Assembly (NCBI GenBank): GCA_028723425.1
Contig: JAQYEZ010000045.1
Coordinates: 1 to 47,243, forward strand
Source: Peptoniphilaceae bacterium
GTDB lineage: Bacteria > Bacillota > Clostridia > Tissierellales > Peptoniphilaceae
Length of the DNA stretch: 47,243 bases
Direction: 5' to 3'
The notes below the pieces were generated by a model. It was not told the origin of the DNA. It was given only the letters and a program-made list of their open reading frames with translations, and did no database searches. Positions 4,791-46,976 of the stretch are shown piece by piece (the first letter of the stretch is position 1; every line of letters starts with the position of its first letter). The translations under genes and the position numbers were made by a program.

Positions 4791-5702
4791 TTATTTTTTA
4801 TTTAAAATCCTAGAACCAAGAAGGACAAAGATAAGACCCAAAATAAGTCTAAGAGTTAGAGCTTCTTTCAAAAATATTATAGAAAATATAGTTCCAAATA
4901 TTGGAATGAAAAGTTTATATATAGAAAACTCACTAGCCTGGTTATATTTCAAAACCAAAGACCACAAAGAAAAAGCAGTGGCTGAGATAAAAGCTCCATA
5001 TAATAAATAAAGTATAATTATGCCGTCTATAGCAAATTCTTGTTTAGCTGTAATCTTTCCTATAATAATTAAAGGAATAGATCCTAAAACAAACTGACTA
5101 GCTGTTAGGCTAAAGGAATTATAGTTTTTACCATACTTTCTTAAAAATGCATTGGCCAAGGCTCCAAAAAGTGTAGACATGATAACAAAACCCTCTCCCC
5201 TTAAGCTAAAAGAAAATTCTCCAAGTCCATTAAAATTTACTATCAATATTCCTACAGTACCTAAAATAAGGGCAAGAACTTTTCTTTTTGTGAGAAATTC
5301 ATCAGCTATGAATAAGACTGCTATAATTACTGAGAAAAAAGCATTTGAAGCTTGAATTACAGATGCTTTTGACCCTTCTGTGTTAGATAAGCCAATGTAG
5401 TAAAATAAATATTGAAGAAAAGTTTGTAACAGAGCTAAAATAAGAATAGTTTTTATATTTAGTTTTTCGTTAATTTCTTTAGTTTTTGCTTTATTCTCAA
5501 TAATATAATAATAAATAAATGAAAGTAGACCTGCTAGAAAAAATCTAAGACCTGCAAGCAGTATCTTTGAACCTGTATCTCCTATGCCAGTATCTATATG
5601 CTGATAAGTTAACTTAATAAGAGGAATAGCCGATCCCCACAAAACCATGGCAAAAATACTAACTAAGATAGAATTTTTCTTATTTGTAAAAAATTTCTCC
5701 AT
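4791..5702 (-). CDS. DMT-superfamily transporter with two EamA domains
   Basis: A 303-residue membrane protein with about ten hydrophobic helices arranged as two EamA (DUF6) repeats, roughly residues 10-145 and 160-300. Family members export or import small metabolites such as amino acids or purines; nothing in the sequence fixes the substrate. The gene begins 12 nt after the stop of the ABC exporter (5715-7487), so the two probably form one transcript, ended by the hairpin at 4747-4780. Confidence 0.85.
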   Translation of the reverse strand: MEKFFTNKKNSILVSIFAMVLWGSAIPLIKLTYQHIDTGIGDTGSKILLAGLRFFLAGLLSFIYYYIIENKAKTKEINEKLNIKTILILALLQTFLQYLFYYIGLSNTEGSKASVIQASNAFFSVIIAVLFIADEFLTKRKVLALILGTVGILIVNFNGLGEFSFSLRGEGFVIMSTLFGALANAFLRKYGKNYNSFSLTASQFVLGSIPLIIIGKITAKQEFAIDGIIILYLLYGAFISATAFSLWSLVLKYNQASEFSIYKLFIPIFGTIFSIIFLKEALTLRLILGLIFVLLGSRILNKK

Positions 5703-5714
5703 ACCTTCTCCTTC

Positions 5715-7487
5715 CTAGCCAAATAATTCTTTATTATTTGAATTATAAAGATTATAATAAATTCCTTTTTTATCAAGAAGCTCTTTATGAGTTCCTTTTT
5801 CAACTATTCCATCTTCTGTTAAGACCAAAATTTCGTCTGCATCAATAATAGTAGAAAGTCTGTGGGCGATGGTTAGAGTAGTTCTTCCCTTAGTTAACTT
5901 TTCTAATGAATCTTGAACAATTTTTTCTGATTTATTATCAAGGGCCGATGTAGCTTCATCCAAAATTAAGATAGGCGGATTTTTTAGAAAAGCTCTGGCT
6001 ATTGATATTCTTTGCTTTTGACCTCCAGAAAGTTTAATGCCTCTTTCTCCTATATAGGTATCAAAACCGTAAGGTAGATCCATGATAAAATCATAAGCAC
6101 CAGCAAGTTTTGCTGCTCTAATAACATCTTCTTCTGTTGCCCTTTGGTCACCGTACTCGATATTTTCTCTTACACTTCCTGAAAATAAATAAACATCTTG
6201 TTGTACTATGCCTATGTGATCTCTCAAGCTTTCCAAAGTTAAGTCCCTTATATTTTTATCATCAATCATAACCTCGCCCAAGCTTGCTTCGTAAAACCTA
6301 GGTATAAGTTTTGTGATAGTTGTTTTTCCAGCACCTGATGGTCCAACCAAGGCCACATTTTCTCCCTTTTTGATGTCAAAATTTATATCATTCAATATCC
6401 ACTCATCACTTTCACTTTGATCTGGATATTTGAAGTAAACATGATCAAACTTTATTCTACCATATACAGCCTTTAACTCTTGTGCCCCTTTTATATCATA
6501 TATATCTGTTTTTAGACCCATAACTTCTGTAAATCTTTCAATGCCTGTTAGACCTCTTTGGAACTGATCAGTAAATTCTACTAGCCTATTAACGGTAGTT
6601 ATAAGGGTATTTAGATACAAAGTAAAGGCAACTAGATCTCCAGATGATAGTTTCCCTTTTAATACCATTGTTCCACCCATAAAAATTAAAACTGCATACA
6701 TAAGACCAGCAAAGGTTTGATTTATCATGTTATAGGATGCCATATAGTAATAAGTTTTTTTCTTTATATCTACAAATCTATCATTACTTTTTTTGAATTT
6801 ATTTTTTTCTACATCTTCATTGGCAAAAGATTTTACTACATTTATTCCAAGCAAAACATCTTCAATATTAGAATTGATATTTCCAATTTGGATTTTTTCA
6901 TTCTTTTGAGTAGTCTTAAAAGCTTGTCTTTTTTCTTTTGCTGCAAAAAACATAATCGGCATCAAAATATAAATTACAAGAGATAATTCTATATTTATAT
7001 TAAGCAGAACAACAAAGGCAATGATTAGTTTTACTGCTCCAATAAAAAATTCTTCTGGACAATGATGAGAAAATTCAGTTATATCAAACAAATCTGTTGT
7101 AACTCTTGACATAAGCTGACCAATCTTTGTTTCACTAAAGAAAGCATCTGACATGGTCAAAAGATGGTGAAAAACATCTCTTCTCATATCCCTTTCTATC
7201 TTGGCTCCCATTATATGACCTATAGATTGCATAAAAAATTTGCCAGCAATTTCTACTACCTTTGTTATAGCAAAAATAAATCCTAGTATTACTATAAGTT
7301 TTATAGTCAAAGACCCATCTTCTGCTGCATCTGTAAGCTTAGCAAGGATAATTGGCAAGACTAACTCACAGATTGTTGTCATTGATGCAGAAAACAAATC
7401 TAGGAAAAAGTCTTTTTTATATGGTATATAATATGGTGTAAATTTTTTTATTAATTGTATATTTGTGTAAGTTTTTTCTTCCTTCAT
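5715..7487 (-). CDS. ABC exporter half-transporter (membrane plus ATPase domains)
   Basis: 590 residues. Residues ~20-310 are the six-helix type-1 exporter membrane domain and ~340-580 the ATPase. Walker A GPSGAGKTT is at ~382-390, signature LSGGQKQR, Walker B ILILDEATSALD and switch IAHRLST follow in order, so it should be an active ATPase. It is of the MsbA/LmrA-like drug or lipid exporter class and should act as a homodimer, since no second half-transporter gene is adjacent. The start ATG follows AAGGAGGAC. It is divergent from nfnA. Confidence 0.9.
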   Translation of the reverse strand: MKEEKTYTNIQLIKKFTPYYIPYKKDFFLDLFSASMTTICELVLPIILAKLTDAAEDGSLTIKLIVILGFIFAITKVVEIAGKFFMQSIGHIMGAKIERDMRRDVFHHLLTMSDAFFSETKIGQLMSRVTTDLFDITEFSHHCPEEFFIGAVKLIIAFVVLLNINIELSLVIYILMPIMFFAAKEKRQAFKTTQKNEKIQIGNINSNIEDVLLGINVVKSFANEDVEKNKFKKSNDRFVDIKKKTYYYMASYNMINQTFAGLMYAVLIFMGGTMVLKGKLSSGDLVAFTLYLNTLITTVNRLVEFTDQFQRGLTGIERFTEVMGLKTDIYDIKGAQELKAVYGRIKFDHVYFKYPDQSESDEWILNDINFDIKKGENVALVGPSGAGKTTITKLIPRFYEASLGEVMIDDKNIRDLTLESLRDHIGIVQQDVYLFSGSVRENIEYGDQRATEEDVIRAAKLAGAYDFIMDLPYGFDTYIGERGIKLSGGQKQRISIARAFLKNPPILILDEATSALDNKSEKIVQDSLEKLTKGRTTLTIAHRLSTIIDADEILVLTEDGIVEKGTHKELLDKKGIYYNLYNSNNKELFG

Positions 7488-7626: not shown

Positions 7627-8469
7627 ATGGCTAGAATTATAGAAAAGACTAACTTAAACGATGATACTATAAAATTTGTAGTAAATGCACCAGCTATAGC
7701 CAAAAGGGCTAAGCCTGGACAATTTGTAATATTAAGACTTGATGAAAAAGGGGAAAGAGTTCCTTTTACCATCTCAGAAACAGACCAAGAAAATGTAACT
7801 ATTATAGTTCAAATTGTTGGCGGAACAACCATAAGAATGAATAGTCTAAAAGCAGGCGATGGATTTTTAGATTTTGTTGGACCCTTAGGAAAGCCAACAG
7901 AGCTTGATAGCTACCAAGGAAAAAATGTCTGTGTAATAGGTGGTGGACTAGGGACTGCTATAGCCTATCCCCAAGCCAAATACCTAAATAGTATAGGCGC
8001 CCATACTGATGTTATTATGGGTTTTAGAAATAAAGACATAGTTATTTTAGAAGATGAGTTAAAAGAAAACTCTGAAAATCTTTACATAGCAACTGATGAT
8101 GGATCCTATGGATATCATGGTTTTGTTACAGACGTTTTAAAAAAGAATATAGAAGATGGGAAAAATTACGACCTAGTTTTAGCTATAGGCCCTGTGATTA
8201 TGATGAAAAATGTTGCCCTTCTTACCAAAAAATACAATATTAAAACTATAGTATCCATGAACTCAATTATGGTAGATGGAACAGGTATGTGCGGATGTTG
8301 TAGATTAACAGTAGGCGGTCAAATGAAATTTGCCTGCGTAGATGGACCTGACTTTGATGGCTTCGAAGTTGACTTTGATGAAGCAATGAACAGGTCAAGA
8401 AACTATAAAAAAGAAGAACAAGATCATATTTGTAAGATAACAGGAGAGATTAGAAATGGCAAAATATAA
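7627..8469 (+). CDS. nfnA: NfnA, NADH-side subunit of NADH-dependent ferredoxin:NADP+ oxidoreductase
   Basis: 280 residues of the PyrK/ferredoxin-NADP-reductase fold: an N-terminal FAD-binding barrel (~1-95), an NAD-binding domain with GGGLGTAIAYP (~105-112), and a C-terminal iron-sulfur loop. That loop reads DGTGMCGCC...FAC. The first cysteine of PyrK is replaced by Asp, as known for the Asp/3-Cys [2Fe-2S] cluster of Nfn small subunits. With NfnB it bifurcates electrons between NADPH, NAD+ and ferredoxin in the cytoplasm of anaerobes. nfnB overlaps its 3' end by 14 nt. Confidence 0.9.
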   Translation: MARIIEKTNLNDDTIKFVVNAPAIAKRAKPGQFVILRLDEKGERVPFTISETDQENVTIIVQIVGGTTIRMNSLKAGDGFLDFVGPLGKPTELDSYQGKNVCVIGGGLGTAIAYPQAKYLNSIGAHTDVIMGFRNKDIVILEDELKENSENLYIATDDGSYGYHGFVTDVLKKNIEDGKNYDLVLAIGPVIMMKNVALLTKKYNIKTIVSMNSIMVDGTGMCGCCRLTVGGQMKFACVDGPDFDGFEVDFDEAMNRSRNYKKEEQDHICKITGEIRNGKI

Positions 8470-9838
8470 CATGGCAAAAGAAAAAGTTTCAATGCCTGAA
8501 CAAGATCCTAATGTAAGAAATAAAAACTTTGATGAAGTAGCTACAGGCTACACTTTCCAAATGGCCCAAGAAGAAGCAAGTAGGTGTATTCAATGCAAAA
8601 ACAAACCTTGTATGGATGGCTGCCCAGTTTCAGTTAGGATTCCAGAATTTATCCATCAAATTGTAGAAAATAACTTAGACAAAGCCTACGATATAATCTC
8701 TTCTACCAACAACTTACCTGCAATCTGTGGCAGAGTATGCCCACAAGAAAGCCAATGCGAAGGCGTATGCACCAGAGCTAAAAATGGAGAAGCTGTAGGA
8801 ATTGGAAGATTAGAAAGATTTGTTGCAGACTACCACATGAACAAAGACTACAACAAACCAGTAGAAGTTATTAGCAAAAACAAAAAAGTAGCTGTTATTG
8901 GAGCTGGTCCTTCTGGTTTGACATGTGCTGCAGATCTTGCCAAACTTGGTTATCAAGTAACCATCTTTGAAGCCTTCCACACAGCAGGTGGAGTTTTGAT
9001 GTATGGCATACCAGAATTTAGACTTCCAAAAAAATTAGTCCAAAAAGAATTAAAAAATGTTATAGGTCTTGGAGTAAAATTACAAGCAAACACAGTAATA
9101 GGAAGAACCATAAGCCTTGATGAACTCTTTGAAGAAGGCTTTGAAGCAATCTATGTTTCAACCGGTGCAGGCCTTCCAAGATTTTTAAATATAAAAGGAG
9201 AAAACCTAAACGGCGTATATTCTGCTAATGAATTCTTAACCAGAATGAACCTAATGAAAGCTTACAAATATCCTGAATATGACACACCAGTTGCAGTTGG
9301 CAATAAAGTTTGTGTTGTAGGCGGTGGAAACGTAGCTATGGATGCTGCTAGAAGTGCAAAAAGACTAGGTTGTGATGTAACTATAGTTTACAGAAGAAGC
9401 TTTGATGAAATGCCAGCTAGAGTCGAAGAAAGCCATCACGCTAAAGAAGAAGGAATAAACTTTATGAACCTTCACAATCCAGTAGAAATATTGGGAGAAG
9501 ACGGATGGGTAAAACAAGTAAAACTTGAAAAAATGGAACTGGGTCAACCTGATGAGTCTGGAAGAAGAAAGCCACTTGCTACAGGAGAATATGAGCTAGT
9601 TGACTTTGATTCTGTAATTATAGCTATAGGTCAATCACCAAACCCTCTTATCAAACAAACTAACCAAGATATAGATACCGAATCTTGGGGCGGAATCATC
9701 ATTGATGAAAAAACCATGACAACAAAAAAAAGCGTCTTTGCTGGAGGAGATGCTGTAAGTGGAGCTGCTACAGTAATTCTTGCCATGGGAGCAGGAAAAG
9801 AAGCCGCAAAAAATATAGATCAATTTCTTAGCAAATAA
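8456..9838 (+). CDS. nfnB: NfnB, glutamate-synthase-small-subunit-like flavoprotein
   Basis: 460 residues. The N-terminus carries two [4Fe-4S] motifs: CIQCKNKPCMDGC, then CGRVCPQESQCEGVC. These are followed by an FAD site (VIGAGPSGL, ~145) and an NADPH site (VVGGGNVAMDAARSAKRLG, ~280), ending with a second FAD segment (AGGDAVSGAATVILAMGAGKEAA). This is the GltD-like fold; adjacency to NfnA and absence of a GltB large subunit point to Nfn rather than glutamate synthase. The first ATG (8456) is used because AGGAG lies 9 nt before it; a second ATG at 8471 has no such site. The gene ends at a strong terminator. Confidence 0.9.
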   Translation: MAKYNMAKEKVSMPEQDPNVRNKNFDEVATGYTFQMAQEEASRCIQCKNKPCMDGCPVSVRIPEFIHQIVENNLDKAYDIISSTNNLPAICGRVCPQESQCEGVCTRAKNGEAVGIGRLERFVADYHMNKDYNKPVEVISKNKKVAVIGAGPSGLTCAADLAKLGYQVTIFEAFHTAGGVLMYGIPEFRLPKKLVQKELKNVIGLGVKLQANTVIGRTISLDELFEEGFEAIYVSTGAGLPRFLNIKGENLNGVYSANEFLTRMNLMKAYKYPEYDTPVAVGNKVCVVGGGNVAMDAARSAKRLGCDVTIVYRRSFDEMPARVEESHHAKEEGINFMNLHNPVEILGEDGWVKQVKLEKMELGQPDESGRRKPLATGEYELVDFDSVIIAIGQSPNPLIKQTNQDIDTESWGGIIIDEKTMTTKKSVFAGGDAVSGAATVILAMGAGKEAAKNIDQFLSK

Positions 9839-37675: not shown

Positions 37676-37720
37676 AAAAAAATGCTAAATAAAGAACACA
37701 GATTTTTCTTTATTTAGCAT
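37675..37720 (-). terminator. Terminator of the zinc transporter operon
   Basis: Arms ATGCTAAATAAAGA (37682-37695) and TCTTTATTTAGCAT (37707-37720) pair perfectly over 14 bp. They are followed on the minus strand by seven T. The upstream arm includes the last codons and stop of the permease gene. Confidence 0.93.
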
Positions 37721-38531
37721 CTTTTTTGTTTTTTATTATTTTCTTATAAAAGTAAGAAAGAGCCGAAACTAAAACTAGGCCTATTACTGCAAGTACAACT
37801 GTTGCTCCTCCTGTCTTTATTCCGTAATTGTACGATAAGATAATCCCCGAAAGTAGAGAAATTATAGCAAAAATTATCGATAAGAAATAAGTTTGTTTAT
37901 AAGATCTGCCTATAAGTAAAGAAGTTGCAACGGGTATAACCATTAAACTTGTAACCATCAAAGCCCCAACCATTTTGGCAGAAATAGCTACCGTTATTGC
38001 TGTTAAAAATGTAAAAATCCCACTAATAAGATCAACCTTAACTCCTACAAGTCTTGCCATATCTGGGTCAATAGATATATATAAAAGTGCCCAATAAAGA
38101 TAAAGAGAAATAAAAATTACCGCAAGAGATACGGCTATTGCCATATATAAATCAACTTTAGTTAGGGTTGTAATTGAGCCAAAAAGATAGGATTCAAAAG
38201 AAGTTCCGCCTGGAGAAAAATCCGACAGTATAGCAGCAAGACCTATACCGGTAGACATGATAATAGCTGTTGCCATATCTCCATACTCTTTAAATTTTTT
38301 TCTAATTATCTCTGTGGCAAAGGCTGCAATAACACATATTATTAATGACCACCTGACTGGGTTTTGACCCAAAATAAGACCAATGCCAATACCTGCCAAG
38401 GAAGTATGGCTAAGGGCATCTCCAATCATGGAAGTTTTTCTATTTATCATAATAACTCCTATCATAGGAATAATTATGGCAAGTAGGGTTCCTACTATAA
38501 AGGCCCTTCTCATAAAATCATAAGCTAGCAT
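37710..38531 (-). CDS. znuB: Metal (zinc) ABC transporter permease, ZnuB-like
   Basis: 273 residues with about eight membrane helices of the ABC-3 permease family (MIGDALSHTSLAGIGIG, MVTSLMVIPVATSLL). Imports Zn2+ (or Mn2+) delivered by the lipoprotein 39194-40282, energised by 38525-39187. It overlaps the ATPase gene by 7 nt and ends in a strong terminator. Zinc is preferred over manganese because of the His-rich binding protein and the neighbouring Fur-family regulator. Confidence 0.9.
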   Translation of the reverse strand: MLAYDFMRRAFIVGTLLAIIIPMIGVIMINRKTSMIGDALSHTSLAGIGIGLILGQNPVRWSLIICVIAAFATEIIRKKFKEYGDMATAIIMSTGIGLAAILSDFSPGGTSFESYLFGSITTLTKVDLYMAIAVSLAVIFISLYLYWALLYISIDPDMARLVGVKVDLISGIFTFLTAITVAISAKMVGALMVTSLMVIPVATSLLIGRSYKQTYFLSIIFAIISLLSGIILSYNYGIKTGGATVVLAVIGLVLVSALSYFYKKIIKNKKDAK

Positions 38532-39187
38532 ATTATCCTTCCATTTTCTATTTTAACAATCTTATTTACATAATCTTTTACAATATTCATCTCATGAGTA
38601 ATAATAACTATAGTTTTTTTGTGGTGAGTATTTAAATGATAGAGAAGTCTTAAAAATTCAGTCTTACTTGTAAGATCAATTCCAACAGTAGGCTCATCCA
38701 AAATCAAAATATCTGGATTTGCTACTATAGCTCTTGCTATCATTACCTTTTGTTTTTGACCGCCTGATAAATCTTTAAAGATAAGATTTTCAAGTTTACT
38801 AATACCCAGTGTCTTAAAAGCTATATCAACTTTTTCCCACTGTTTAGGGCCTGGTCTATTAAGAAAATTAAATTCCTTAAAAAGATTCATCACTACATAT
38901 TCCTTGCAAGTTACAGGAAATGATATTTTCGTTAGGTCATTTACTTGGGGAACATAGCCCAATCTCTCAAAGGCATTAAAATCTTCTATATCCTTACCTA
39001 AAAGTTTGATAGAGCCACCATCTTTTTTTAAACTTCCCAAAATAAGCTTTAATAAAGTAGACTTTCCGCTACCGTTTTCTCCAACGATAGCTAGAAAGTC
39101 TCCTTCTTCTACATTTAAGCTTATATCCTTTAAAACATATTCAGTTGTATAAGCAAATTTTAAATTGTTAATTTCAATTAAATTCAT
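38525..39187 (-). CDS. znuC: Metal (zinc) ABC transporter ATPase, ZnuC-like
   Basis: 220 residues. Walker A GENGSGKSTLLKL (~36), signature LSGGQKQKVMIARAI, Walker B ILILDEPTVGID, His switch VIITHEM. A standard short metal-type ATPase placed between the binding-protein gene (6-nt gap) and the permease gene (7-nt overlap). Confidence 0.92.
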   Translation of the reverse strand: MNLIEINNLKFAYTTEYVLKDISLNVEEGDFLAIVGENGSGKSTLLKLILGSLKKDGGSIKLLGKDIEDFNAFERLGYVPQVNDLTKISFPVTCKEYVVMNLFKEFNFLNRPGPKQWEKVDIAFKTLGISKLENLIFKDLSGGQKQKVMIARAIVANPDILILDEPTVGIDLTSKTEFLRLLYHLNTHHKKTIVIITHEMNIVKDYVNKIVKIENGRIIC

Positions 39188-39193
39188 TTTTAC

Positions 39194-40282
39194 CTATTTT
39201 TCCAAAGATTGATAAATTGCCTCTAAGTTTTCTTTAATCAAATCTTGGTAATGAACCTCATTTTTCAAATCTTCTTTTGAAGCAAATTCAAGTGTTGCCA
39301 ATGGCTTAGCACTTCCAGAAATTTCATTAGCTATAGCTTGTGCTGCCTTGTCAGAGCCACCTCTTTCATAGAAAATTGTATTGATATTTTCCTTCTTTAC
39401 CTTATCGGTTACTTCTTGCATAGTTTTTGCATCTGGTTCTTTTGTAGATGTAATTCCCGTTAATGGAATTTGTTCCAAATCAAAGTCTCTGCACAAGTAA
39501 GCAAAAGCCTCATGAGGAACTACAAATTCATTGGATTTTTTAGATTCAAATTTTTTCTTATATTCACTTACAAGACTATCAAGTTCTTTGGCAATTTTTT
39601 CATAATTTGCCTTATAATAATCCTTATTGTCTGGGTCTATCTCTGAAAGTTTATCACTAATAACTTTTGCTTGTTCTTTTCCCATTACAGGTGATATCCA
39701 AGTGTGAGGATCAAACTCTCCATTGTGTTCATGGTCATGGTCTTCTTCATGATCTTGATCTTCGTGGTCATCTTGATCTTCATCTTTTTTATCTTCATGG
39801 TCATCTAAGTCTTCTTCATGTTCATCTTCGTGATCATGGTCGTCTGCGTCAGCTTTTATTAAATCCAAGCCCTTAGTTGTATCAAGAATTTCTACATCTG
39901 ATGATCCAGAAACAGAATCTTTCCAACTTTCCATACCAGCTCCGTTAATGATTAGAAGATTTGCTTCGTTCAAATTTGCCAAATCTTTAGCTGATGCTTC
40001 CCAATCATGAGCTTCAGTTTCTAGACTACCTAAATTCTCTACATCCATTTTATCACCTGCAATTTGTTTTGTAAGGTCATAAATTGGATAAAATGATGTA
40101 TAAACTAACTTTTTACTATTTTCTTTTTTTGTTTCTGCTTTAGTATCTGATGTAGTATCAGAAGTAGTATCGGAAGTTGATACTTGTGATCCTTGATCTG
40201 TATTTTCATTATTATTTTGCTTACCGCAAGCTGAAAAAACTATTGTTCCTGCAAGTAATAAAGCTAAATATTTTTTATTCAT
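39194..40282 (-). CDS. znuA: Zinc-binding lipoprotein of ABC importer, ZnuA/AdcA-like
   Basis: 362 residues. Lipoprotein signal ending FSAC (Cys19); a repetitive Ser-Asp-Thr-Thr linker (~33-50); then the cluster A-1 binding fold with FYPIYDLT, FDPHTWISP, VPHEAFAYL and the late FYERGGSD. Between residues ~145 and 195 is an exceptionally Asp/Glu/His-rich loop with about nine His, the zinc-collecting loop of ZnuA-type proteins. GGAGG precedes the ATG. Expression probably controlled through the palindrome at 40293-40311. Confidence 0.93.
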   Translation of the reverse strand: MNKKYLALLLAGTIVFSACGKQNNNENTDQGSQVSTSDTTSDTTSDTKAETKKENSKKLVYTSFYPIYDLTKQIAGDKMDVENLGSLETEAHDWEASAKDLANLNEANLLIINGAGMESWKDSVSGSSDVEILDTTKGLDLIKADADDHDHEDEHEEDLDDHEDKKDEDQDDHEDQDHEEDHDHEHNGEFDPHTWISPVMGKEQAKVISDKLSEIDPDNKDYYKANYEKIAKELDSLVSEYKKKFESKKSNEFVVPHEAFAYLCRDFDLEQIPLTGITSTKEPDAKTMQEVTDKVKKENINTIFYERGGSDKAAQAIANEISGSAKPLATLEFASKEDLKNEVHYQDLIKENLEAIYQSLEK

Positions 40283-40292
40283 ATTTCCTCCT

Positions 40293-40311
40293 ATTGCAAA
40301 CCGTTTGCAAT
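40293..40311. promoter_or_regulatory. 19-bp perfect palindrome, probable Zur operator
   Basis: ATTGCAAACCGTTTGCAAT is a perfect 9-1-9 inverted repeat between znuA and the divergent Fur-family gene. It covers the predicted transcription start of znuA (~40309), just after its -10. Fur-family sites have an odd centre like this one, but the bases differ from the Bacillus Zur box (TCGTAATNATTACGA). Confidence 0.75.
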
Positions 40312-40315
40312 TAGT

Positions 40316-40343
40316 ATTATATTCTATTTTATTATCCTGTCAA
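40316..40343 (-). promoter_or_regulatory. Promoter of the zinc transporter operon
   Basis: Minus strand TTGACA (40338-40343), 16-bp spacer, TATAAT (40316-40321). Consensus hexamers imply a strong promoter that must be repressed, in line with the palindrome at the start site. Confidence 0.8.
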
Positions 40344-40349
40344 CTAAAG

Positions 40350-40355
40350 TATAAT
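40350..40355 (+). promoter_or_regulatory. -10 box of the Fur-family gene
   Basis: TATAAT on the plus strand, with AAGGAG at 40366-40371 and ATG at 40382 downstream. The -35 (TTTTAT, about 40327) is weak. Confidence 0.5.
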
Positions 40356-40381
40356 AATATTTAATAAGGAGTGTGGTTTTA

Positions 40382-40798
40382 ATGCATACAGAAGAAATAC
40401 TAAAAGATAAGGGCCTTAGAGTTACAAAACCAAGGTCCATTATACTTGAGACAATATATAAGCTAAAAAGACCAATATCAGCTGAAGAAATATATAAGAT
40501 AATAGGAGAGAATAACCAATATCTAAATCTTTCAACAGTATATAGAAATCTAAAAACTTTGGTTGACAAAAATGTCCTCTTAAAAAATACAGATCTTGAT
40601 GGAGTTTCCTATTTCCAATTAAATATTCAAGCCCACAAGCACTTTATCACTTGCATAAAATGTGGAAAAAAAGTAACCATAGAAAATTGCCCAATAGATG
40701 AATTTTCTCACCAAGTAGAAGAAGAAACTGGTTTTACAGTAAGAAGCCACAATTTCGAATTTACAGGCATATGCCCTGACTGTATGAAGAATTTATAA
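40382..40798 (+). CDS. zur: Fur-family metalloregulator, probably Zur
   Basis: 138 residues. A winged helix (RVTKPRSIILETIYKLKRPISAEEIYKII...LSTVYRNLKTLVDKNVL) is followed by a metal-sensing and dimerisation domain with AHKHFITCIKCGKKV and a second CxxC near the end (CPDC), the structural zinc site. Divergence from a zinc importer suggests Zur rather than Fur or PerR. The ATG at 40382 is chosen because AAGGAG lies 10 nt upstream; an in-frame GTG at 40373 is too close to it. A strong terminator follows. PerR must be encoded elsewhere unless this protein does both jobs. Confidence 0.85.
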   Translation: MHTEEILKDKGLRVTKPRSIILETIYKLKRPISAEEIYKIIGENNQYLNLSTVYRNLKTLVDKNVLLKNTDLDGVSYFQLNIQAHKHFITCIKCGKKVTIENCPIDEFSHQVEEETGFTVRSHNFEFTGICPDCMKNL

Positions 40799-43678: not shown

Positions 43679-43702
43679 AAAAAAGAGCCTCCGAAAGGAG
43701 AC
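43679..43702 (-). terminator. Terminator after the flavodiiron gene
   Basis: On the minus strand GTCTCC-TTTC-GGAGGC (43687-43702) forms a 6-bp stem with one G-U pair and a 4-nt loop, followed by TCTTTTTTCTTTT. It ends the acyl-CoA dehydrogenase/flavodiiron operon before nadE. Confidence 0.88.
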
Positions 43703-43717
43703 CCTAATTTACTGTTT

Positions 43718-44974
43718 TTATTTCTTTTTACCTTTATTTTGAGAAGCAGATTTTTCTTTATCTTCTCTTCTCTTCTTCAGAGAATCTTTGATACCAGAAA
43801 CAATATCAAGAAGTTCTGGCTCTTTCATATCACTAAGTGATGATACTATTTCTAGGCTTTCTGGAAGAACATCCATTAGTTTCATATCATTGTCTAACAT
43901 TTCTTCCATCTTTTCAGCAGCTTGTGGTGCCCATGAACCGTTTCCTATAATTGTTACAGCTCTATTTTGGATATTAAGAGCTGACATATCATTGATGAAA
44001 TCTTTCATCTTAGGATATACGCCTAGGTTATAAGTTACTGAAGCTAGAACAAGGTTTGTATATTTGAATGTTAAAGCTATAAGTTCAGATACATCTGTGT
44101 TTGAAACATCTCTTAAAGCTATGTTTGTAATTCCTGCTTCACATAGTTGTGCTGCTAGTGATTGGGCTGCATATTCTGTATTACCATACATTGATGCATA
44201 AACTATTAGTACACCTTCTTCTTCTGGTTCATATGTTGCCCAATGTATATATTTATCAAGAAGATATCCTATATCTTTTCTCCAAACAAGACCATGAAGT
44301 GGGCAGATGTATTTAATATCTAAGCCACCTGCTTTTGCCAATACATTTTGTACAAATGTACCATATTTACCAACAATGTTTGTGTAATATCTACGTGCTT
44401 CGTCAAGATAATCTCTATCCCAGTTAACTTCATCAGCAAATAGTCTTCCGTTATTAGCTATAAATGAACCGAATGCGTCAGCAGAGAATAAAACTCCATT
44501 TGTTACATCAAAAGTCATCAAAACTTCTGGCCAGTGAACCATTGGAGCCTCAACAAAGGCAAAGGTATGTTTACCAAAGTTCATTGTGTCGCCTTCTTTT
44601 ACTTCAATATATCTATCATCTACATGGAAACCAAATTGTCTCATGAAGAGGACAGCTTTTTCTGAAGCAATTAGTGTTGCATTTGGATATTCATTTAAAA
44701 CTAAGTCTATAGAAGCAGCATGGTCTGGTTCCATATGGTTAATTAAAAGATAATCTAAATCTCTTCCATTAAGAACATGTTTAACATTGTTTAGGTAATC
44801 TCTTGCTATTGCCCAGTCAACTGTATCTACTAAAACTGTTTTTTCGTCCATTAAAAGGTATGAGTTGTAAGAAACACCTTGTGGGATTGGAAAAATATTT
44901 TCAAATAGATGAAGTCTTCTGTCATCCCCACCCACATAGTATAAATCGTCTGTAACTTTTCTAACTGTATACAT
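43718..44974 (-). CDS. fprA: FprA-type flavodiiron protein (A-type flavoprotein)
   Basis: 418 residues. Residues 1-250 are a beta-lactamase-like di-iron domain with all ligands: H80-x-E82-x-D84-H85 (HMEPDH), the His of VHWPE, Asp of SADAFG and His of PLHGLVW. Residues ~255-400 are an FMN flavodoxin domain (VYASMYGNTEYAA). There is no extra rubredoxin or flavin-reductase domain, so it is class A and needs an outside electron donor, normally rubredoxin. In clostridia FprA reduces O2 (or NO) to water. It lies 12 nt after the acyl-CoA dehydrogenase fusion. Confidence 0.93.
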   Translation of the reverse strand: MYTVRKVTDDLYYVGGDDRRLHLFENIFPIPQGVSYNSYLLMDEKTVLVDTVDWAIARDYLNNVKHVLNGRDLDYLLINHMEPDHAASIDLVLNEYPNATLIASEKAVLFMRQFGFHVDDRYIEVKEGDTMNFGKHTFAFVEAPMVHWPEVLMTFDVTNGVLFSADAFGSFIANNGRLFADEVNWDRDYLDEARRYYTNIVGKYGTFVQNVLAKAGGLDIKYICPLHGLVWRKDIGYLLDKYIHWATYEPEEEGVLIVYASMYGNTEYAAQSLAAQLCEAGITNIALRDVSNTDVSELIALTFKYTNLVLASVTYNLGVYPKMKDFINDMSALNIQNRAVTIIGNGSWAPQAAEKMEEMLDNDMKLMDVLPESLEIVSSLSDMKEPELLDIVSGIKDSLKKRREDKEKSASQNKGKKK

Positions 44975-44986
44975 TATTTCCTCCTA

Positions 44987-46912
44987 CTACTTTCTGTCTT
45001 CTGGGAATTCTACTTTAACAAATTCTTCTTTTGGTTCACCTGATACTGGAGATACCCAAGAATCTGGAAGTTTGTCAAATGGAGTTCCTGGCTCTATGCC
45101 TTGACTTGGATCCCCAAGCTCAGGGTTATATTCATATCCACTACCTTGATCTACGTAAATATCTTCCTTTGGAGCCATTTTTCTTGGTTTGCTTCTTTTA
45201 ATTTTTTTCATTTTAGGAGCTGGCTTTTTTTCTTCACCATTATCAAGTTCTTTGATTAATAGTGGAAGAACTTCCTTGAAATCGCCAACTATACCATAGT
45301 CTGCATTTGCAAATATTGGTGCATTCTTGCTATTATTTATAGCAACTATTGTAGAAGCATCTCTGATTCCCTTTAAGTGTTGACCTGCTCCAGAAACGCC
45401 AACGCCAATGTATAAGTTTCCTTTGAATGTTTGTCCAGACATACCAACGTATCTATCTAATGGTACATATTTTAAGGTTTCAGCAACTGGTCTTGATGAA
45501 GAAATAGCTGCTCCTGCTTGATAAGCAAGTTCTTCTATATATTTCATATTTTCTTTTTCACCAATACCACGGCCAGCAACAACTATTCTTTGAGCTTCTG
45601 CTATTGGTGTCATTGGGTCAATACCAACTGTGAAGTCATATCCATCTTTCTTTAGAGCAGCAACTAAATTCTTAACTGCTTCTTTTGGATCTCCTTCAAA
45701 AATTTCTCTTTTTCTAACACCAGCTATTGGTCCTGCAGCTTTCTTGCTGCCAACAGCTTTCATCTTTGGAGGACGACCTACAGTGTTAGTACCAACTACT
45801 ACTCTCATGATTTCGTTAGTACCTTCATATATTTGTGTAATCTTGGCATCTCTAAAGAATCTTTCAACGTCAACGCCTTTAATAAATCCTGATCCACCAT
45901 AAAGTTGAACAGCTTCAGTAGCTATATGCATAGCAAGATCTGATGCAACTTGTTTAGCCATAGCAGCTTCTGCTGAGTATCTTTCATGATGCTCTTTTAA
46001 TTCAGCAGCATGATAAATCATAAGTCTTGCACCGTGTAGGTAGGTAGCCATATCGGCAAGCTTGAAAGTATTTCTTTGTAAATGAGCAATTGGCATACCA
46101 AATTGTTCACGTTCTTTAGCATATGCTAGGGCTGATTCGTAAGCACCTTGGCCAATACCTAAAGCTTGAGAAGCTATACCAATTCTACCTCCATCAAGGG
46201 TAGCCATAGCTATCTTAAATCCTTGTCCTTCTTTTCCAAGCAAGTTTTCTTTTGGTACTTTAACATTGTCAAAGTGTAATTCAGCTGTTGAAGAAGATCT
46301 AATACCAAGTTTGTCATAGTGATCTGAGAATGTAAATCCTTCAAAGTCTTTTTCAACTATAAATGCTGAAATACCATGTGTTCCAATACCAGGAGTTGTA
46401 ACTGCCATTACTACATAAGTGTCTGCTTTTGGAGCATTTGTTATAAATATTTTTTTACCATTAAGAATGTAATAATCACCATCAAGAACCGCTGTTGTTT
46501 CTGTACCTGCTGCATCTGATCCAGCGTTTTCTTCTGTTAAACCGAATGCACCGATTTTTTCACCTTTAGCTAAAGGAATTAAATATTTTTGTTTTTGTTC
46601 TTCTGTACCAAAGGCAAAGATTGGCCAAGTACCTAAAGAAGTATGTGCTGAACAGATAACACCAACACCAGCGTCAACTCTTGATAATTCTTCTACTGTA
46701 ATTGCATAAGAAATAACATCAAGACCTTGTCCACCGTATTCTTTAGGATATGGTATTCCCATAAATCCTAATTCACCCATTTCTTTAACGATGTCATCAG
46801 GAAACTCATTTTTTTGATCTAATTCAAAAGCTATTGGTTTTACTTTTTCTTCCGCAAAAGCCCTAACTTTTTTACGTAAAGCTTCATGTTCAGCTGTAGT
46901 TTTAAAAAGCAT
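44987..46912 (-). CDS. Acyl-CoA dehydrogenase fused to EtfA FAD domain and cysteine-less rubredoxin-like domain
   Basis: 641 residues. Residues 1-380 are a short-chain acyl-CoA dehydrogenase (butyryl-CoA type) with [20 protein letters not shown] and the catalytic Glu in YEGTNEIMR. Residues ~430-556 match the C-terminal FAD-binding domain of EtfA ([47 protein letters not shown]). A basic linker (~557-583) leads to residues 584-630, a rubredoxin fold ([28 protein letters not shown]) whose four Cys are D588, S591, S621 and S624. No EtfB or N-terminal EtfA domain is fused. AGGAGG precedes the ATG; it is first gene of the operon with fprA. Confidence 0.93.
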
Positions 46913-46947: not shown

Positions 46948-46976
46948 ATTTTATTATCAAAAGGTTTTCTTGTCAA
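46948..46976 (-). promoter_or_regulatory. Promoter of the acyl-CoA dehydrogenase/fprA operon
   Basis: Minus strand TTGACA (46971-46976), 17-bp spacer, TAAAAT (46948-46953). The predicted start is ~46941, with AGGAGG at 46920-46925 and ATG ending at 46912. Confidence 0.75.

Follow-up and report, generated by a model that had tools for sequence, protein, structure and literature searches.

Can a flavodiiron protein (FDP) be supplied with electrons through a rubredoxin domain that lacks all of its iron ligands? The question is raised by two adjacent genes in the window, that is, the whole stretch of 47,243 nucleotides (nt) analysed here (contig JAQYEZ010000045.1 of a Peptoniphilaceae bacterium, assembly GCA_028723425.1). 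One gene encodes a fusion of a butyryl-CoA dehydrogenase, the C-terminal flavin adenine dinucleotide (FAD) domain of EtfA and a rubredoxin-like domain, and the other encodes a class A FDP, called FDP1 here. The original prediction regarded this pair as a system in which the oxidation of acyl-CoA drives the scavenging of O2 or nitric oxide (NO).

The chain from acyl-CoA to O2 is not new for such a gene pair, as it has a precedent in Fusobacterium nucleatum. The butyryl-CoA oxygen oxidoreductase (BOOR) of this species, composed of BCR and FDP (FN1424-FN1423), comes from Bystrom & Wolthers (2024; Biochemistry 63:2352) and is described here after a review in J Bacteriol of 2025 (PMC12288474), which reports a two-protein complex with butyryl-CoA-dependent O2 reduction. 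Like the window pair, BOOR carries the dehydrogenase, the EtfA C-terminus and the rubredoxin fold in one protein and forms a two-gene unit with a class A FDP in the same gene order. BOOR is also mentioned in a JBC article of 2025 (PMC12630350). According to a preprint (PMC13404960), Roseburia and further gut Firmicutes have it close to a regulator of the Rrf2 type; the homologues of those bacteria share the architecture and the gene pair of the window. What is new here is a variant of BOOR, in which Asp-Ser-Ser-Ser (DSSS) replaces the four ligand cysteines (Cys4) of the rubredoxin. Among open-access papers, judged by titles, abstract beginnings and term counts, we found none on a cysteine-less rubredoxin in BOOR or on a BOOR system in Anaerococcus, the genus of the closest relatives of the window fusion (up to 92–93% identity among the best 80 of 458 loci).

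Our preferred reading, which we hold with about even confidence, is that the pair is a BOOR-type butyryl-CoA:O2 oxidoreductase with an iron-free relay, in which the FAD of the EtfA domain would pass electrons directly to the flavin mononucleotide (FMN) of FDP1 and the pseudo-rubredoxin would serve for docking.

Exchange of the four iron ligands

The Pfam family Rubredoxin (PF00301) matches residues 592–631 of the fusion with 48.5 bits, and in 29 genomes of the genus the match of the fused domain spans profile positions 8–47. All four ligand Cys are missing, in line with the original prediction, which had called this rubredoxin dead. The three-part fusion and the adjacent FDP gene are those of BOOR, but the Cys4 rubredoxin is not; therefore, we file the window pair as a BOOR variant and not as a plain member. 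The single Fusobacterium locus sampled (L032) has Cys4, and the sampled Lachnospiraceae fusions also keep the four Cys, whereas the window has DSSS together with some changes in the EtfA domain.

A scan of genome contigs for relatives gave 458 confirmed loci, and the best 80 were used, comprising 71 full-length fusions and nine shorter paralogues that end after the EtfA domain. DSSS was found in 24 of 24 Anaerococcus rows (the window and 23 loci) and Cys4 in all 48 other fusions. The 217 listed database proteins (98 and a further 119, from a second listing of 120 of 5462 proteins of which 119 were new) divide into 70 with DSSS and 147 with Cys4, and none is mixed; P0153, with Cys4, escaped the residue pattern and was assigned by eye. 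Every DSSS cluster with an organism in its listed name is from Anaerococcus, and the DSSS loci and the 70 DSSS protein clusters overlap in species. These ligand letters come from the window, the 71 full-length loci and the listed proteins; as the survey rests on the best 80 of the 458 loci and on listed proteins, independent losses may have occurred elsewhere. A sequencing or assembly error was rejected because the same residues are carried by 23 other loci and 70 protein clusters.

A quick tree from which the rubredoxin part had been left out places the 24 DSSS rows in a single clade (SH-like approximate likelihood ratio test, 100), and the two nearest rows outside it (L061 and L023) retain Cys4. 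The most likely history is therefore a single swap, dating from the base of Anaerococcus or earlier. At 18 rubredoxin positions, conservation in the 48 other rows reaches at least 90%; the DSSS rows are fixed for a different residue at the four ligands and at none of the remaining 14. A random draw of four from the 18 positions would give this very set once in 3060 draws. We also considered a purge of cysteine from the whole protein and rejected it: the DSSS fusions have a mean of 2.25 Cys against 6.96, and this difference consists mostly of the four ligands; at position 504, which also bears on this explanation, both of the nearest rows outside the clade already have Val.

As judged from its codons, the pseudo-rubredoxin is under purifying selection, though not above its surroundings. 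In the 24 DSSS rows, its ratio of nonsynonymous to synonymous differences (pN/pS) is 0.179, with a pS of 0.53, and the values elsewhere in these fusions are 0.103 for the dehydrogenase, 0.156 for EtfA, 0.162 for the linker before the rubredoxin and 0.225 for the other linker. The rubredoxin domain of the Cys4 rows gives 0.317, with pS near saturation. Serine codons of both boxes occur at residue 621 (TCN in 16 rows, AGY in 8) and at residue 591 (TCN in 23, AGY in one), which argues that Ser itself was retained at these two positions; Ser624 is TCN in all 24 rows. Chance or decay of the domain was rejected, since only the four ligands of the 18 conserved positions are fixed differently and pN/pS is 0.179.

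The same pattern could suit a site that binds another metal or ligand, such as a hard divalent ion, in a redox or regulatory role. Such a site would account for Asp and Ser being invariant at the exact ligand positions in the 24 Anaerococcus rows and for Ser621 being kept across codon boxes. However, on general chemical grounds, a carboxylate with three hydroxyls is poorly suited to holding a redox metal, and we regard this explanation as improbable.

The predicted structure of the domain resembles rubredoxin in its fold and in its core and loop residues, although all four Cys are absent. The alignment behind the domain model combined the genome's free rubredoxin with 10 DSSS and 23 Cys4 rows. 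The core of the model has a predicted local distance difference test score (pLDDT) of 89–91, and in Foldseek it matched the listed free rubredoxins with TMt 0.80–0.94 and a root-mean-square deviation (rmsd) of 0.7–1.2 (1rdg: TMt 0.94, rmsd 0.7). The rubredoxin part of the full-length model is less certain, with a pLDDT of 74–86. The non-ligand residues of the ligand-bearing loops are retained, and in rubredoxins these loops are the usual surface for meeting partners.

Linkage of the fusion to FDP1

Each of the 71 full-length fusions is followed on the same strand by an FDP gene, whose start lies 8–374 nt beyond the last sense codon; in L043 and L045, this gene is only partly contained. A census of 31 genomes of the genus found the fusion and FDP1 together in 29. 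In each of these they are adjacent, and 8–16 nt, a figure that includes the stop codon, lie between the last sense codon and the FDP. The other two genomes (G008 and G023) have neither gene. The linkage exceeds chance. An apparent insertion in the FDP1 of L022 (Anaerococcus sp. 9403502) was discarded, as the stretch is a run of N in an assembly gap, and the FDP1 of G013, with a similar pattern, was taken as an assembly gap by its likeness to L022.

FDP1 has the ODP and Flavodoxin_1 domains of a class A flavodiiron protein and no further Pfam domain, so it is without a reductase domain of its own, as had been predicted. The original prediction, which named it FprA, also held that all di-iron ligands are present, and our data agree with this. 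They lie in the motifs HMEPDH (80), MVHWPE (145), SADAFG (164) and PLHG (225), whose seven His, Glu and Asp residues we take to be the ligands. All 72 aligned FDPs retain those of the first three motifs, and that of PLHG is present in 70 of 70, as two more FDPs run off the contig end.

In the fusion, Pfam found three acyl-CoA dehydrogenase domains (149, 95.3 and 147.6 bits) and ETF_alpha (PF00766) at residues 437–517 (85.5 bits). The listed matches of the full-length model in a structure search are all dehydrogenases, covering model residues 1–387 at most. E363, presumably the catalytic base, is invariant across 29 aligned sequences, as are R474, S492, S507-G508-A509, Q511 and H512 of the EtfA domain, where we take SR and SGAxQH to be the FAD motifs. 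The dehydrogenase part is 57% identical to that of the bifurcating Bcd-EtfAB of Clostridioides difficile (5ol2). The window fusion differs from that complex in lacking EtfB and the bifurcating FAD, in its tethered shuttle and in being paired with an FDP; Pfam found no PF01012 domain (EtfB/EtfA N-terminal) in it, and the PF01012 matches of the source genome lie elsewhere, on contigs C60 and C69. As a separate observation, all 24 DSSS fusions have Cys at residue 87 of the dehydrogenase part (46652–46654), as do 5 of 9 paralogues without rubredoxin; in the 48 Cys4 fusions, this residue is Leu in 43 and Cys in 3.

The loss of the fused iron site, and the presence of a separate dehydrogenase-EtfB-EtfA gene row elsewhere in the source genome, could mean that the pair is a relic or has been re-purposed, with the fusion acting as a plain dehydrogenase, FDP1 being fed by NADH and the transfer between them lost. 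We consider this very improbable, as the genes are adjacent in 29 of 29 genomes and jointly absent in 2 of 31, purifying selection acts on all parts of the fusion, and the FAD motifs and the di-iron ligands are conserved. Taken together with the F. nucleatum enzyme as reviewed (PMC12288474), the linkage, the co-occurrence and the ligand conservation agree with acyl-CoA-driven O2 reduction by the pair, as had been proposed.

The proposed scavenging of NO fared differently. The best PDB matches of FDP1 are FDPs, namely 6etb (197.5 bits), an anaerobic nitric oxide reductase flavorubredoxin, and 1ycf (194.4 bits), which is filed as a nitric oxide reductase, and this would suit a complex that also reduces NO. 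However, sequence similarity cannot tell O2 from NO selectivity, and NO reductase activity is reportedly absent from the BCR-FDP complex of F. nucleatum (PMC12288474). This argues against that half of the prediction, and we give an NO-reducing function little probability.

Possible electron routes: direct transfer between flavins or a free rubredoxin

In Bcd-EtfAB, the FAD domain of EtfA is the shuttle, and in ordinary ETFs it swings between partners. By our preferred reading, butyryl-CoA or a similar acyl-CoA would reduce the FAD of the dehydrogenase, which would hand the electrons on to the FAD in the tethered EtfA domain. As an Fe(SCys)4 centre cannot form, this mobile domain would swing to the flavodoxin domain of bound FDP1 and reduce the FMN directly, and the di-iron site of FDP1 would then reduce O2 to water. 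The pseudo-rubredoxin would keep its fold and its partner-facing loops and act as a docking adaptor, and a hydrogen-bonded cluster of the Asp and the three Ser probably occupies the place of the metal. We infer the direct transfer, the docking and this cluster; for the formation of the complex and for O2 reduction with butyryl-CoA, we extrapolate from the Fusobacterium enzyme as reviewed. The clean ligand swap, the predicted rubredoxin fold and the paralogues without rubredoxin that lie beside a second FDP all fit direct transfer, which the original prediction had put forward together with a possible docking of FDP1 by the rubredoxin.

These paralogues, dehydrogenase-EtfA proteins without the rubredoxin domain, were found in at least 18 of the 31 genomes, with an identity of 63–66% in 15 (partial in G016) and 41% in 3. 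The second FDP is present in all 31, in pieces with stops in G017. In 16 of the 18 genomes, 160–363 nt separate the paralogue from a divergently oriented second FDP; in another the distance is 1553 nt, and in the last the two are unlinked. The fusion itself is the divergent neighbour of the second FDP in 8 other genomes (350–382 nt), and in 5 the second FDP is divergent to neither, including the source genome, where the contig ends. This mostly divergent placement suggests that a dehydrogenase-EtfA protein without rubredoxin may serve an FDP; no FDP was found on the 8.8-kb contig of L071, a relative of this kind outside the genus. A wider version of the preferred reading, to which we give somewhat less than even weight, holds that one clean swap to an invariant Asp-Ser3 turned a carrier into a docking adaptor with a flavin-to-flavin route, and that the paralogue and the second FDP would form a further acyl-CoA:O2 route.

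Several results weigh against direct transfer with a docking adaptor. Selection does not single out the pseudo-rubredoxin, which is less constrained than the dehydrogenase and EtfA domains and no more constrained than the preceding linker. The predicted fold is not independent, because the alignment behind the model consists mostly of Cys4 rows (23 of 34). In the EtfA domain, four changes are fixed at otherwise conserved positions near the SR and SGAxQH motifs (S445V, G471S, A503G and I506V), that is, 4 of 71 conserved positions, compared with 2 of 207 in the dehydrogenase (Fisher p = 0.039, one-sided). However, this signal is weak, as 3 such changes each were also seen in two other clades, whose branches are longer, and a co-change of the EtfA domain with the ligand loss is suggestive only; in this comparison, eight other clades were each set against the remaining Cys4 rows and 4 of the 24 DSSS rows. 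The flavodoxin domain of FDP1 shows no burst of change (1 of 42 conserved positions), although a changed donor might predict one. A coupled change in FDP1 was not used as an argument. Where at least 85% of the other rows agree, FDP1 of the DSSS rows has 7 fixed changes, 6 of which are in the metallo-beta-lactamase part, and the 7 in the DSSS rows are not clearly above the 5 each of LachnoA and Murdochiella/Kallipyga.

Moreover, a free rubredoxin that could stand in for the fused one, matching the whole profile, is present in 31 of 31 genomes, as is a reductase-like protein of family PF18267 (E ≤ 0.001; above the family cut-off in 29). In the source genome, the free rubredoxin has 51 aa and four Cys, and the PDB chain nearest to its PF18267 protein is 3klj. 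The main rival to direct transfer is that this rubredoxin acts in trans, carrying electrons to FDP1 from the EtfA FAD, or from NADH by way of a reductase, so that the fused copy became redundant and is now a spacer. The universal presence of both proteins, the modest constraint on the pseudo-rubredoxin and the general knowledge that clostridial FDPs accept electrons from rubredoxin all speak for it. On the other hand, the free rubredoxin also occurs in the two genomes without the pair, its neighbour genes are on the other strand, and rubredoxin matches are found in at least 111 of 123 genomes of the family, so that they do not track the ligand loss; nor would a mere spacer need to keep Asp-Ser-Ser-Ser invariant. 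We regard this rival as unlikely on balance.

Clostridial FDPs are fed by NADH through rubredoxin reductase and rubredoxin. That chain and the flavorubredoxin of Escherichia coli end in the same FMN/di-iron enzyme as the window pair, which differs in that its electron source is taken to be acyl-CoA and its fused relay has no iron ligands. A possible NADH-rubredoxin-FDP chain in the genus is independent of the fusion pair because its parts also occur in the two pair-less genomes; the free rubredoxin and the PF18267 protein may serve the second FDP, and a role with FDP1 is also conceivable. The original prediction had named unlinked genes together with a separate rubredoxin reductase as a sign against it; a reductase-like protein is indeed present throughout, but no unlinking was seen among the 29 genomes with the pair.

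BOOR gives fermenting anaerobes a route by which O2 can serve as an electron sink for butyryl-CoA. Anaerococcus provides a natural experiment on the need for the rubredoxin iron in it, as its relatives bear iron, the genus is ligand-less, and many of its genomes also hold a dehydrogenase-EtfA protein without rubredoxin. If our preferred reading is true, the genus-wide loss of four ligands with the rest of the domain kept would clearly exemplify the conversion of an electron carrier into a scaffold. It is also a warning for annotation, as a Pfam rubredoxin match above the cut-off need not mean an iron protein.

Features of the gene pair and other loci

The two open reading frames (ORFs) lie 12 nt apart, as predicted (Table 1). 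One promoter and one terminator had also been proposed for the pair. Candidate sites for both were found. Neither type of match exceeds shuffled sequence: the region holds 14 promoter-type matches against 17.9 (standard deviation (sd) 4.2) in shuffles and 3 terminator-type matches against 1.9 (sd 1.5). However, the promoter TTGACA has the same letters in the window and in 6 of 6 aligned near relatives. No Rrf2-type regulator was seen downstream of the pair; the upstream side ends at the contig end.

Table 1. Positions in the window of the gene pair, its protein domains and its candidate signals.
Feature	Positions	Strand	Basis
Fusion gene, BCR-type, 641 aa (butyryl-CoA dehydrogenase, EtfA C-terminal FAD domain, Cys-less rubredoxin)	44987..46912	-	ORF, Pfam, relatives
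Acyl-CoA dehydrogenase domain, residues 1-380, IYEGTNE motif including E363	45773..46912	-	Pfam, alignment
EtfA C-terminal FAD-binding domain, residues 435-557	45242..45610	-	PF00766
Lys/Pro-rich linker, residues 558-583	45164..45241	-	no Pfam match; pLDDT 62 at residues 571-580
Pseudo-rubredoxin domain, residues 584-631, predicted rubredoxin fold, without iron ligands	45020..45163	-	PF00301, model
Asp588 (GAT), first ligand Cys position	45149..45151	-	sequence, alignment
Ser591 (AGT), second ligand Cys position	45140..45142	-	sequence, alignment
Ser621 (TCT), third ligand Cys position	45050..45052	-	sequence, alignment
Ser624 (TCA), fourth ligand Cys position	45041..45043	-	sequence, alignment
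Intergenic stretch, 12 nt, with GGAGG ribosome-binding site	44975..44986	-	sequence
Class A flavodiiron protein FDP1, 418 aa (metallo-beta-lactamase-like and flavodoxin), Lys-rich tail	43718..44974	-	Pfam, PDB matches
Likely promoter, TTGACA-17-TAAAAT (11/12 match)	46948..46976	-	motif scan
Terminator-like hairpin, 9-bp stem and T-run, just 3' of the FDP1 gene	43684..43705	-	hairpin scan

The paralogues without rubredoxin were seen at loci L068, L069, L070, L072, L073 (6001–7683), L074, L076 and L079. In six of these eight (not L073 and L079), NAD-synthetase-like and phosphoesterase-like genes soon follow, which by eye resemble those downstream of the window pair. A further dehydrogenase-EtfA protein without rubredoxin, 51–52% identical over fusion residues 4–558, occurs in at least 4 of the 31 genomes (G024, G016, G026 and G013).

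On contig C69 of the source genome, the second FDP is convergent to an [FeFe]-hydrogenase-like protein (PF02906; L095:3618-5126 and 5190-6407), and in L014 a 502-aa protein with an N-terminus similar to that of this protein is likewise convergent to the second FDP. Contig C60 (L096:1138-8001) carries an EtfB-EtfA fusion of 630 aa (PF01012 twice, PF00766). Its neighbours resemble genes for an FAD-linked oxidase, for an FAD/NAD oxidoreductase and for a sugar kinase, as judged from the translations, and the group may be a cluster for ETF-linked oxidation.

In the window itself, positions 37710–40798 hold genes for a metal-type ABC transporter and a His-rich lipoprotein, divergent to a Fur-family-like regulator, and at 7627–9838 two adjacent ORFs resemble the NfnAB ferredoxin:NADP oxidoreductase pair; for both loci, the names are our presumption from the ORF translations.

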